The notes under the pieces are model-generated. The model worked only from the letters and a program-made list of their open reading frames with translations. It had not been told where the DNA came from and ran no database searches. DNA of 64,000 bases, from NCBI RefSeq assembly GCF_026870175.2, contig NZ_CP113977.2, forward strand, positions 3,472,001-3,536,000, in the 5' to 3' direction. The DNA comes from Flavobacterium aestivum. Its GTDB lineage: Bacteria; Bacteroidota; Bacteroidia; Flavobacteriales; Flavobacteriaceae. A program made the translations under genes and the position numbers. Position 1 is the stretch's first letter. Each line of letters starts with the position of its first letter. This document shows, piece after piece, positions 14,276 through 63,384 of this stretch.

Positions 14276-14367
14276 GATGCCCTAACCCCGATAGCAGTGG
14301 AAATCCTTTTTATTTTTCCTTTAAAAATGAAAAGATTAAAACGAATAGCGGGATAAAGCTCCTAAAA
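14276..14367 (+). other. Recurrent Flavobacterium intergenic element (putative structured RNA)
   Basis: The uvrA/LOG spacer contains the phrases CCCTAACCCCGATAGCAGTG, GGAAATCCTTTTT, ACGAATAGCGGGAT and AAGCTCCTAAAAA in this order. I recall near-identical text repeated in intergenic regions of other Flavobacterium genomes; this is memory, not a search. The CCCGATAGC and GAATAGCGGG ends could pair around an AT-rich centre. Function unknown. Confidence 0.45.
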
Positions 14368-60766: not shown

Positions 60767-60860
60767 TGTTTTTAAAACCCTTTTTGGGAAAATAACAACT
60801 CCCCTATTTTTACAAACAACAGTCGCCTATCAAAACCATAGGCGAGCCTACATTTCCATA

Positions 60861-60964
60861 CTACAGTGATTTTGGAACTAAATTGAGTCTCTCGAATTTG
60901 ACAAATTACCCCAAATACAAAACTAATTTTCCATTAAGCCAATTGCCCAAATCCGTTGTAGTAG
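60861..60964 (-). repeat. Element A: ~105-bp imperfect inverted-repeat cassette end
   Basis: Begins CTACAGTGATTTTGG and ends CCAAATCCGTTGTAG on the plus strand; these ends are imperfect complements (11 of 15). The interior CCCCAAATACAAAACTA...TTCCATTAAGCCAA is shared with the copy at 61573. It lies 16 bp past the stop of the small membrane-protein gene at 60981. A separate 8-bp hairpin TCGCCTAT/ATAGGCGA sits at 60823-60845. Confidence 0.65.
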
Positions 60965-60980
60965 CTATTGCACCCAGTTT

Positions 60981-61544
60981 TTATTTACGATTTAGTTTAA
61001 TTCTACTATATTTTTTGTCCAAAGGTTGTAAAATACTGTCCGAAATTATCAAATATCTTTTAGTGATTTCTTTGTCTGTTTTACTTTCTATATTTTCATC
61101 ATCAAGAATAATTATATTCTTTTCAATATGATATTTTCCAATAAATGTGCATCGATTTTCAATATACGATCTTGTTACTTCAAAGGAATTATTTTCATAC
61201 AATACTATCCAAGCTCTCTCATACTCGTCTTCAATAACTCCTTCATATTTAATTTCTCTCCAAAATTTATTTTCATTAGCTATAATTAGAAAACTATTCA
61301 AGGTAACAAACATAATAAAGAGGTACAAAGGAATAAAATCAAATTTTTCTCCTTTGTTAAACAATTTAAACAAATCTCGAATTTCAATTATTATAAAACT
61401 AAGAATAAAAATTACACTTAAAAAAGCAAATAATAAACCTTTAGCCATTCCTTCGCAGAAATCACCAAAATGAAGGTTTAAACATAAAGTCAATAAGAGC
61501 AAAATTGCTAATATTCCGTATTTAATTTTCTTTCGTTCTTTCAT
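60981..61544 (-). CDS. Small hypothetical membrane protein (cassette 1)
   Basis: A 187-residue protein that I do not recognise. A basic start (MKERKKIKYG) leads into three hydrophobic segments (about 10-25, 36-56 and 74-94), then a soluble C-terminus with EYERAWIVLYENNSFEVTRSYIENRCTFIGKYHIEKNIIILDDENI, a beta-rich segment. ATG 61544 is preferred to an upstream TTG (61562), which lies in the conserved flank TTAAAATTGAGTACAAC shared with the neighbouring gene. The stop is followed at once by repeat element A. Small two- or three-helix proteins of this kind are common in accessory strips; an immunity-type role is only a guess. Confidence 0.6.
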   Translation of the reverse strand: MKERKKIKYGILAILLLLTLCLNLHFGDFCEGMAKGLLFAFLSVIFILSFIIIEIRDLFKLFNKGEKFDFIPLYLFIMFVTLNSFLIIANENKFWREIKYEGVIEDEYERAWIVLYENNSFEVTRSYIENRCTFIGKYHIEKNIIILDDENIESKTDKEITKRYLIISDSILQPLDKKYSRIKLNRK

Positions 61545-61556
61545 CTTTAAAATTGA

Positions 61557-61563
61557 GTACAAC
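61557..61563 (-). repeat. GTACAAC cassette flank, copy 1
   Basis: TTAAAATTGAGTACAAC just before the ATG 61544 gene matches TTAAAATGTCGTACAAC before the ATG 62254 gene. On the minus strand it reads GTTGTAC. Confidence 0.5.
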
Positions 61564-61572
61564 GTTCTGATG

Positions 61573-61679
61573 CTACAGCGGGTTTGGTTCTAAATCAACC
61601 CCTATTTTTCGGATTTTCCAAATCATCCCAAATACAAAACCAACTTTCCATTAAGCCAAATGTCTAAATCCCTTGTAAT
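61573..61679 (-). repeat. Element B: second copy of the cassette-end repeat
   Basis: Begins CTACAGCGGGTTTGG and ends CTAAATCCCTTGTAA; interior matches element A with about five extra bases and roughly 85 % identity over the best 70 bp. It lies about 20 bp past the stop of the gene at 61700 and just before the start of the gene ending at 61544. Confidence 0.65.
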
Positions 61680-61699
61680 AGCTATTTTACGTCGTTTTT

Positions 61700-62254
61700 T
61701 TATTTGGTTCTGTTAAACAAAACATCTAATGGTGATAATCCTTTAGCTTTGTTCAATACGTTATCTAGTATGAATTTTTCGTCTAGAATTATTTTCTCCT
61801 CTTTATTTTTTTTAAACTCTTTATAAATCTCTACAATAGTAAAATAATCCCAATTAAATAATTTATTAATATCATAAACCTCTTTATCACAAGATAATCT
61901 CAATAAATACTGAATGTTAGATTTACCACCTTTTGATTTAATTTTGATTTCAGTTCTTTTAATATCTATTTTTTCTTCCCATTTGCTGTTGAATTCATAT
62001 CCGATTAAAGTGATTTTTTCTTTATCAATTCTAATTTCACTTATAAAATTAATGGAATTTATATAATTTTCTATTGTATAAAGTAGTGCAGCAATTATAA
62101 AAAATACTAAACCTATTAATTCCCCATAATCTTCTTCGCTGGCACAAAACCAGTAAATAATTATTCCTAAAATAATCAAAATACAAAAAAACATGTCATT
62201 TTTTATTCGGTCTGTAAATTTTATAAAATCAGTTTTAAAAACCTTCTCGTTCAT
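61700..62254 (-). CDS. Small hypothetical membrane protein (cassette 2)
   Basis: A 184-residue protein that I do not recognise. A charged N-terminus (MNEKVFKTDFIKFTDRIKND), two membrane helices (about 22-38 and 44-64) and a soluble beta/alpha C-terminus with EIRIDKEKITLIGYEFNSKW and KIKSKGGKSNIQYLLRLS. The layout is reminiscent of YcxB-like proteins. Two ATGs are possible: 62287 adds 11 residues but its codons are the conserved GTTGTAC flank seen before the neighbouring gene, so I prefer 62254. The stop is followed by repeat element B. Transcription probably runs leftward into cassette 1. Confidence 0.6.
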   Translation of the reverse strand: MNEKVFKTDFIKFTDRIKNDMFFCILIILGIIIYWFCASEEDYGELIGLVFFIIAALLYTIENYINSINFISEIRIDKEKITLIGYEFNSKWEEKIDIKRTEIKIKSKGGKSNIQYLLRLSCDKEVYDINKLFNWDYFTIVEIYKEFKKNKEEKIILDEKFILDNVLNKAKGLSPLDVLFNRTK

Positions 62255-62278
62255 TAGATTTCGTTCGGTTAAAATGTC

Positions 62279-62285
62279 GTACAAC
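62279..62285 (-). repeat. GTACAAC cassette flank, copy 2
   Basis: Part of TTAAAATGTCGTACAAC on the plus strand, matching the flank at 61557-61563. Confidence 0.5.
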
Positions 62286-62387
62286 ATGCATATATCTATG
62301 ACTAATCACTCCAATCCACCCAAATCTGGGTAATTTTGTGTGACAAACTCTCGGTATTACTTTTTCTAAATATATAAGGATATATAA

Positions 62388-62443: not shown

Positions 62444-62857
62444 TTATTTCTTATCAGTTAATTTTTCTAGATAAGCGTTTTTTTCTTTTTCCGCAGCTAG
62501 TAAGCGTTCGTAAAGTTTTTTATTTTCATCGTAAGCTTCTACTAACTTATCAAGTGGATTGAATGTACAATTAGTTGCAAAAATACTTCCAGTTGTAACA
62601 ACGTTGTCTTGAAAAGTATTAAAATAATTAATAACCCCATCTTCCGAAAAGTTTTTAATTGCTTCTACACTTACACCAAGAGCTTTTGCAACTTCTACCA
62701 GTTTTTCTTCCTCGATAGTTTCGCTATTCTCCATAACAGATATTGCCTGTTGATTTGTTCCTAAAGCCTGTGCTAAAGCTTCTTGCTTCATGTCTCGGAG
62801 TTCGCGAATACGGCTTATTTTTCGCCCTATATGGTTTGGTTTTGTTACTGTGCTCAT
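62444..62857 (-). CDS. XRE-family helix-turn-helix regulator
   Basis: A 137-residue regulator. The HTH_3 domain (about 9-65) is IGRKISRIRELRDMKQEALAQALGTNQQAISVMENSETIEEEKLVEVAKALGVSVEAIKNF. The C-terminal part (about 70-137) ends in a predicted coiled coil, LDKLVEAYDENKKLYERLLAAEKEKNAYLEKL, for dimerisation. Start is ATG 62857 (MSTVTKPN); the longer frame upstream encodes a hydrophobic, non-family stretch and crosses the promoter. The TATCTTTG box is 4 nt from the ATG, so the mRNA should be leaderless. Possible regulator of the neighbouring small genes, but no operator was identified. Confidence 0.87.
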   Translation of the reverse strand: MSTVTKPNHIGRKISRIRELRDMKQEALAQALGTNQQAISVMENSETIEEEKLVEVAKALGVSVEAIKNFSEDGVINYFNTFQDNVVTTGSIFATNCTFNPLDKLVEAYDENKKLYERLLAAEKEKNAYLEKLTDKK

Positions 62858-62861
62858 AGGC

Positions 62862-62869
62862 CAAAGATA
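62862..62869 (-). promoter_or_regulatory. -7 box touching the XRE start codon
   Basis: TATCTTTG on the minus strand, then GCCT and ATG at 62857. Confidence 0.5.
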
Positions 62870-62952
62870 TTTAAAATTCTGTAAAAAAAATCGGTTTTGG
62901 TAAAAAACTAGTATGCATTTGTAAGATACATTTTTCAATATTTTCAAGAATA

Positions 62953-63384
62953 TCAATCATAATATTCGTTACCTATTTCATCAATATATCCGCTTTTTCC
63001 ATTATCTAGGGTAAAACGTGCGAGATTAAACCGGTATTTTTCTAATACTTTGTATTTAATTTTAGTAATTCCAAAGTACCCAAAATGATGATCCTTTTCT
63101 AATTTAATAATGAAATTTTTAACACTAATATTATCGTAAAAAGTAATATTCCCATTTTTTAAAATTCCAAATAGATTATCTTTTTCAATAATAACAGTAT
63201 GCGGATAATATTTTATATCATCAAATATGAATGTGTTTTCATCATAAGTTAACGTTGTTTGACAATTTGGAAAATAAATTTCATTGACTTTATCAATACT
63301 AATTGAATCGATCGGTTTCGCTTTTATTGTGTCATTATGCAAACGAAATGGCAAGATTCTTTCCGTTACAACATACTTATTCAC
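62953..63384 (-). CDS. Second half of a split WG-repeat-like protein
   Basis: A 143-codon frame beginning at a GTG (63384) that overlaps the previous stop. Segments FGILKNGNITFYDN, FGYFGITKIKYKVLEKYRFNLARF and a final GKSGYIDEIGNEYYD are WG-repeat-like (G-x-I-D-x-x-G). It has no signal peptide or independent ATG. A -1 shift at the A_AAA_AAG heptamer joins it to the upstream frame, giving one exported protein of about 258 residues. I consider it the downstream half of that gene. Confidence 0.55.
   Translation of the reverse strand: MNKYVVTERILPFRLHNDTIKAKPIDSISIDKVNEIYFPNCQTTLTYDENTFIFDDIKYYPHTVIIEKDNLFGILKNGNITFYDNISVKNFIIKLEKDHHFGYFGITKIKYKVLEKYRFNLARFTLDNGKSGYIDEIGNEYYD

Follow-up and report, generated by a model that had tools for sequence, protein, structure and literature searches.

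A probable decayed cassette array of an integron-like system in Flavobacterium aestivum

Here we describe a region of the Flavobacterium aestivum genome that is, with high probability, a decayed cassette array of an integron-like Bacteroidota system whose recombinase is not IntI. The region lies within the window, the 64,000-nucleotide stretch of contig NZ_CP113977.2 that was analysed. In the order that we propose, a recombinase gene, lost here, would be followed by an attI-like site, cassette 2, hairpin site B, cassette 1 and hairpin site A. About 39 copies of the hairpin site, each of 131–162 nt, occur at eight places of the genome. Judged by sequence comparison, the cassette system is integron-like, yet, by its recombinase, it is not an IntI integron.

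All features of the array lie on the minus strand. The attI-like site (62278 to 62385) has its expected crossover at CAT^GTT, with the G of GTT at 62285, and is followed by cassette 2 (61563 to 62284, delimited from the TT of GTT to the next G). The ORF of this cassette (61700 to 62254) encodes about 184 aa from MNEKVFKTDF, with the start codon chosen by eye. Site B (61556 to 61691) separates cassette 2 from cassette 1 (60851 to 61562), which carries an ORF (60981 to 61544) of 187 aa from MKERKK..., and site A (60844 to 60974) is the final site of the array, with a decayed R' that reads GTA in place of GTT. Both products appear membrane-type by eye, and neither gave a Pfam match at E 0.01 (cassette 2 was scanned as a 195-aa version). 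As the preliminary description had stated, no integrase is present in the window: the recombinase gene is absent, and the place upstream of the attI-like site, a site which that description missed, is occupied by an ORF (62444 to 62956) named by eye as an XRE-type regulator.

The two elements recognized earlier are real and homologous. Sites A and B form a 109-nt ungapped direct repeat of 77% identity, and both were found by model R3, which rests on 62 sites from other species, all own-genome sequence being excluded (site B, 120.3 bits, E 3.8e-20; site A, 98.7 bits, E 4.5e-16); since R3 holds no sequence of this genome, the matches are far from chance. Relative to the positions given earlier, the true limits extend 10–17 nt further on each side. 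Model R1, built partly from sites A and B of the window, scored them at 133.2 bits (B) and 118.5 bits (A), and its next match within the window alone had an E of 0.21. A search with element A as query gave at least 30 matches in the 4.58-Mb single-contig genome (40 of 80 candidates scored), ranging from E 4.6e-74 (the element itself) to 5.9e-4. These matches were clustered, with a spacing of mostly 0.6–1.7 kb and some longer gaps. At E 0.01, R3 returned 42 rows on nine stretches covering the eight places, 39 of them distinct, with the three weakest at 28–32 bits. The elements are thus multicopy, dispersed and placed beside different genes, not fixed single copies. Within one array the sites have a common orientation, each 3' of its ORF.

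Read in the direction of the genes, the left half of a site runs ...NNNNNNNAAC, AGC, TACTACA, AC and GGATTTGG to a variable tip, after which the right half runs CCAAACCC, GC, TGTAGTA, CCAGAAC and GTTRNNNNN...; 3 and 7 nt separate the AAC/GTT box from the first inner helix. A tip palindrome of about 26 nt (GCTTCGCC...CTCGGGT) is present in many own-genome sites (L010, L011, L012, L015 and L016) and missing from both window copies. Covariation, likewise put forward earlier as a check, was clear for the 21-pair hairpin in 62 sites from relatives: 101 double-change cells were counted against 27.0 after shuffling, and 13 pairs had changed on both sides. The proportion of cells paired was 96.3% versus 88.0% for shuffles, a percentage flattered by the fitting of the alignment (A5) to the structure. 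The folding energy of the window sites, on either strand, was not clearly better than that of shuffles (z from −1.51 to +1.05), the best z among all sites tested being −2.07, on the bottom strand. No site was matched by Rfam at gathering scores. attC sites have R and L boxes, a folded hairpin and the consensus RYYYAAC/GTTRRRY; for these attC-like sites a hairpin and AAC and GTT were observed, and the RRRY is not kept.

The ends of the cassettes carry a further signature. Each cassette opens with GTT and an arm that is complementary to the 3' end of the same cassette and not of its neighbour. The flank TTAAAATnnnGTACAAC, reported earlier at both window genes, is present there exactly, but GTTGTAC as a conserved flank did not hold elsewhere; the conserved part is GTT (in relatives, 76 of 81 cassettes begin with GTT plus purine), because the bases after GTT belong to the cassette-specific arm. 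In cassette 2, the 5' arm GTTGTACGAC forms 7 of 10 Watson–Crick pairs and one G-T pair with its own 3' arm GACGTAAAAT; in cassette 1, the 5' arm GTTGTACTCA and 3' arm TGGGTGCAAT form seven such pairs and three G-T pairs, that is, zero mismatches in the 10. The arms of the window cassettes thus pair imperfectly. Among 22 cassettes of this genome, whose arms average 8.1 of 10 pairs, positions 4–10 were paired at 5.32 of 7 within a cassette versus 2.93 with shuffled partners (none of 20000 shuffles as high), and R'' and R' within a single site, which belong to neighbouring cassettes, paired at 3.13 of 7 (n=24). In relatives, the corresponding values were 6.22 for own arms, 2.82 for shuffled (maximum 3.33 of 5000) and 2.84 for the same site (n=64). 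Own pairing there reached at least 9 of 10 in 70 of the 81 cassettes and 10 of 10 in 48, with 11 cassettes below 9, and 12 of 14 attI-proximal cassettes had 9 or 10 own pairs. Own-arm pairing is therefore nearly perfect beside recombinase genes and eroded without them.

The attI-like stretch was defined from 16 aligned loci of relatives, in which about 100–110 nt directly 3' of the recombinase stop codon hold three palindromes and typically end in TATATAC(T/A)A^GTT, where the first cassette starts. Model R2, made from these 16 sites with none from this genome, found the window site at 46.6 bits (E 1.8e-5 over 460 kb) and at least eight attI-like sites of at least 43 bits in the genome, the window one included (150 of 5537 candidates scored). 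In the 16 sites, the outer palindrome was paired in 87.5% of cells, with five of seven pairs changed on both sides; the first palindrome was weak (44.8% of cells paired), and two of five whole-structure measures were no higher than in shuffles. The palindrome on the crossover side varies by species and stays palindromic (L117 6920–7029 and other attI-like sites), as though coevolving with some DNA-binding partner, for instance the additional N-terminal region of the recombinase. The attI described here is analogous to integron attI by position, not by sequence.

The attI also appears to hold a promoter. The flavobacterial sigma-A −7 consensus is given as TAnnTTTG in a passage of PMC9723704. 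At the expected attI position, 17 of 18 Flavobacterium-type loci have TAnnTT(T/A)G, in 14 of them with TTTG. An upstream TTTG, also a promoter motif, lies 18–22 nt before it in 16 of the 18, mostly within the last Phe-Asp codons of the recombinase gene, against only 8 of 17 more distant loci. From these sequence matches, attI likely holds a sigma-A −7 box and thus a predicted promoter. Vestiges of the gene precede several attI-like sites of this genome: residues 320–347 (the last 28) of the recombinase, at 50% identity, are encoded at L016 9052–9135, ending 5 nt before attI (E 0.15, accepted for its position); KSSLDYL-stop and SSFDYL-stop precede two other sites by eye; and C-terminal recombinase fragments at L011 17478–17770 (E 6e-5 and 7e-5) head the largest array. 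The last codons may have survived the loss of the gene because the promoter within them was kept under selection. A Flavo-1 RNA on the plus strand (L011 17674–17751) overlaps the last of these vestiges, which is on the minus strand, and another lies in the window at 14280–14359 (RF01705, 75.9 bits). Flavo-1 RNA near the arrays was taken as unrelated, with 38 copies above threshold across the genome.

We used 20 stretches of the genus chosen for closeness of recombinase and array. They contained 19 recombinase loci, most encoding 347 aa, one with an internal stop (L121) and one of another type (L127). The preliminary description had proposed looking for a tyrosine recombinase next to other copies, and one was found: in 16 of these 19 loci, chosen for that closeness, R1 sites lie downstream on the same strand, and two of the three loci without R1 sites (L128 and L130) are near a contig end. 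In relatives the gene stands upstream of attI and is co-directional with the array. The L116 protein contains the tyrosine recombinase core (PF00589, 136.8 bits); members of the family are mostly 344–385 aa long, the catalytic residues are conserved across 18 diverse members, and the N terminus is extended by about 70 residues. The second type of recombinase (L127 7050–8120), from a genus genome, has 356 aa and a similar N-terminal part. The best NCBIfam model for L116 was a XerA one, at 219.9 bits with a cutoff of 220. The catalytic core and domain layout are common to XerC, XerD and XerA, which differ in that the sites here are hairpins after each array gene, not dif, and in the extra N-terminal stretch. 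In the own genome, no orthologue was found, the best match being a Xer-like protein of 33% identity. Because of long branches in a tree of 21 recombinases, in which the position of IntI1 was not settled, no origin is claimed for the recombinase.

Integrons are characterized by an IntI integrase, attI, attC sites, cassette arrays and R'/R'' complementarity, and single-strand recombination moves their cassettes in circular form. The likenesses are a promoter-proximal attI-like site, tandem one-gene cassettes, a hairpin after each gene, a G^TT junction, R'/R'' complementarity within each cassette, arrays without integrase, and cargo much of which is of unknown function, with some defence and toxin–antitoxin type genes. 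A canonical integron remnant (CALIN), with ordinary attC sites made and movable by an IntI integrase, would be laid out alike, with attI, cassettes and hairpin sites, and would have the same GTT/AAC core, and integrase-less CALINs are common according to passages of PMC9668308 and PMC9024848. This reading is nevertheless very unlikely in view of the recombinase at intact arrays, which is without the 41-residue IntI1 insert. When the L116 protein was compared with the IntI4 structure 2a3v, query residues 254–269 stood opposite residues 185–242, and the spacer between two motifs was 58–59 residues in 209 of 240 close homologues (those with both motifs found) and 63 in one distant member, compared with 100 in IntI1. 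Against TIGR02249 (cutoff 265), the recombinase scored 186–209 bits in two stretches and the IntI1 control 508.7 bits in one, and none of 249 genus genomes gave a score above the cutoff (at most 8 candidates scored in each). Below the threshold, these genomes have split matches beside arrays, in ORFs of roughly 350 aa; TIGR02249 alone was dropped as a detector, its matches in all 249 lying below the cutoff. Several of the homologues listed carry the NCBI name 'site-specific tyrosine recombinase/integron integrase', which is the wording of NF040815. Further differences from integrons are the extra N-terminal residues, the co-directional recombinase gene, the spacers of 3 against 7 nt, the AAC-to-GTT distance (often about 117–119 nt here, and 38–42 nt in the Bacteroides branch) and an attI with a variable covarying palindrome. 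Lacking the IntI insert and scoring below the TIGR02249 cutoff, the recombinase of the cassette system is not an integron integrase. The earlier proposal of attC-type or other single-strand-recombined cassettes is supported by the conserved ends around different cargo, the covarying hairpin and the own complementary ends, with the refinement that the enzyme is not an integron integrase.

The sites are also multicopy, imperfectly palindromic, intergenic and about 130 nt long, as interspersed palindromic repeats of the MITE/REP type or structured terminators would be if placed by chance between small genes. Such a repeat, inserted between genes, would not create complementarity between the two ends of one cassette; unit ends match their own partner and not the neighbour's, the next unit almost always begins with GTT, and identical blocks stop exactly at cassette limits. 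The copies in an array have one orientation, 3' of ORFs, and insertions in either orientation were not seen in the fetched arrays; we give this explanation a negligible probability. Growth of the arrays through homologous recombination between repeats, or through duplication between them, with the recombinase acting elsewhere, would fit the many site-bearing genomes without a recombinase orthologue, and repeats could indeed recombine. This process, however, would swap the arms and destroy the own complementarity that is nearly perfect beside recombinase genes, and the attI-proximal cassette is joined at a fixed base, which makes it highly improbable.

R1 sites were found in 174 of 249 genus genomes (E 1e-3; 13 candidates scored per genome, single weak matches counted). 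A survey of the family, for the most part with a single genome from each genus, found them in 7 of 199 genomes, two from the own genus and five others with weak matches. The recombinase was detected in 131 of the 249 at E 1e-60, its homologues in 219 of 396 genomes of the class Bacteroidia at E 1e-45, and, by profile search at 1e-60, in 151 of 298 genomes of another order; such homologues do not all lie beside arrays. Carriers among the matches listed include Flavobacterium enshiense, F. aciduliphilum, F. psychrophilum, Algoriphagus ornithinivorans, Arundinibacter roseus, Algibacter onchidii and Bacteroidales MAGs. Recombinase and sites co-occur weakly across the genus: with orthologues of at least 58% identity, 81 of the 249 genomes had both, 22 the recombinase only, 93 sites only and 53 neither (Fisher p 0.012), so that 93 of the 174 site-bearing genomes are without such an orthologue; a looser recombinase set gave 96, 35, 78 and 40 (p 0.27). 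Of 14 loci from other families and species, 11 contained R3 sites, mostly weak ones. For distant loci, self-BLAST for repeats was weak, and a model-free search for chains of self-complementary GTT...AAC units spaced 85–175 nt, applied to 31 loci that had been chosen out of 100 for downstream length, did better. Chains of at least four units were found in 10 of the 31, with up to 11 in F. enshiense and a core spacing of often 116–121 nt; shuffles in 2-base blocks reached four once in 155, and the upstream stretches, 11 of which are only 1.5–2.5 kb long, reached at most two. The recombinase is also found, at 67% identity, on two Chryseobacterium plasmids (L342, from Chryseobacterium oryzae, and NZ_CP041688.1), and these copies are possibly mobile integrons of the integron-like type. 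Klebsiella and Aeromonas plasmids encode a recombinase 50.6% identical over residues 99–347 (NZ_CP084417.1 47025–47774 and similar).

Passages of a 2025 preprint (PMC12247911) describe the rAID (recombinase-associated acquired interbacterial defence) arrays of Bacteroidales as a tyrosine recombinase upstream of co-oriented short genes with conserved intergenic motifs and low GC, and say that their assembly is under active research. The reference recombinase of rAID is BF9343_RS08045 of B. fragilis. In Bacteroides ovatus and Parabacteroides distasonis, plasmid records contain a recombinase of 44–45% identity followed by co-oriented genes; the B. ovatus recombinase has 44% identity over 294 residues to the Flavobacterium one. 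Their cargo is partly annotated as immunity (SMI1/KNR4, Imm26, PoNe and PoNi types, and Tdi1). Loci L340 and L341, with GC of 34.5% and 35.2%, have co-oriented genes and a hairpin motif. The cassette ends, TTA...TAA, are self-complementary, with at least 8 of 9 pairs in 11 of 12 cassettes of B. ovatus and 7 of 10 of Parabacteroides; 3 of the 10 rows of L341 are spoilt because the motif scan took in a spurious and a terminal site. Arms of this Bacteroides branch were paired at positions 4–9 at 4.64 of 6 within a cassette, versus 2.21 when shuffled (0 of 20000) and 2.14 across one site. The intergenic motif is a 12-pair hairpin with 85.3% of cells paired versus 64.8% in shuffles and 57 double-change cells versus 18.7, while the number of further pair types was no higher than in shuffles. 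These loci match the described rAID, an identity that rests on architecture and cargo. Like the Flavobacterium system, rAID has an upstream tyrosine recombinase, co-oriented short genes, intergenic motifs and low GC, and the rAID-like B. ovatus locus also has self-complementary ends and a covarying hairpin. The rAID-like loci differ in short sites and a cassette start of TTA, versus GTT in Flavobacterium, and their annotated cargo, besides hypotheticals, is mostly immunity genes, whereas Flavobacterium cargo is mixed. Set against the rAID criterion of orphan immunity cargo, the window ORFs had no Pfam match, and 59 ORFs of relatives included one Tdi1 and one SUKH, the rest being other or none. 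The same kind of system appears to assemble toxin–immunity gene arrays in gut Bacteroides.

Indirect signs of cassette movement were found in several arrays. One array contains two copies of a non-coding 324-nt cassette that are 100% identical up to their exact ends (L116 3606–3929 and 14009–14332), one at attI and the other internal. A cassette of the own genome (L016 12589–13162) has a counterpart in another species with 90.5% identity along the full 581 nt; for the cassettes beside that counterpart, the own-genome stretches gave no match of 80% coverage. Cassettes of 345–405 nt were found repeatedly, across four species, one of which has such a cassette at attI. Recurrent cassettes of 324–405 nt without an ORF of at least 50 aa on either strand were seen in L116, L117 (10053–10397), L126 (3533–3913), L122 (2095–2463) and L125 (2819–3223), some at attI, and are possibly RNA or promoter cassettes. 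Of 29 listed cassette ORFs in the own genome 20 were scanned, and 12 of these had no Pfam match at E 0.01; others include TIR, RNase T, Lgt, beta-lactamase-fold hydrolase and SocA antitoxin domains. In relatives (59 of 63 ORFs scanned), single members of Tdi1 immunity, SUKH, NERD, PIN, Gp49, DMP19, LprI and GNAT were found, and one cassette encodes a reverse transcriptase close to AbiP2.

In the mechanism that we propose, the attC-like site would fold into a hairpin as single-stranded DNA, and the tyrosine recombinase would bind the folded site and recombine it at G^TT with another site (excision) or with attI (insertion). The own 5' arm (GTT...) would pair with the own 3' arm (...AAC), the cassette being excised as a circle, and insertion at attI would put it beside the recombinase gene and its promoter. 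Folding in vivo, the strand used, cleavage, the circular intermediate and transcription of the array from attI are all proposed steps of this scheme, as is the loss of the recombinase gene in the own genome, rather than its never having been there.

Among the open-licence PMC titles and abstract openings listed, none named such a system. We lean, with some reserve, towards a phylum-wide second integron lineage in Bacteroidota, based on a Xer-like recombinase without the IntI insert and comprising a long-site branch with mixed cargo (Flavobacterium, Cyclobacteriaceae, others and the Chryseobacterium plasmids) and a short-site branch, the rAID arrays of gut Bacteroidales. If this is true, cassette capture through folded sites arose, or persisted, in the absence of the domain by which integron integrases are thought to be defined. 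Given the homologue in 219 of 396 class genomes and sites in 174 of 249 within the genus, the niche seems to be occupied by a related machine that integron scans would miss. The proposed scheme offers a concrete, testable mechanism for the assembly of rAID arrays, and, with cargo of anti-phage and anti-toxin type, the system may be a route for the trade of defence genes among these bacteria.
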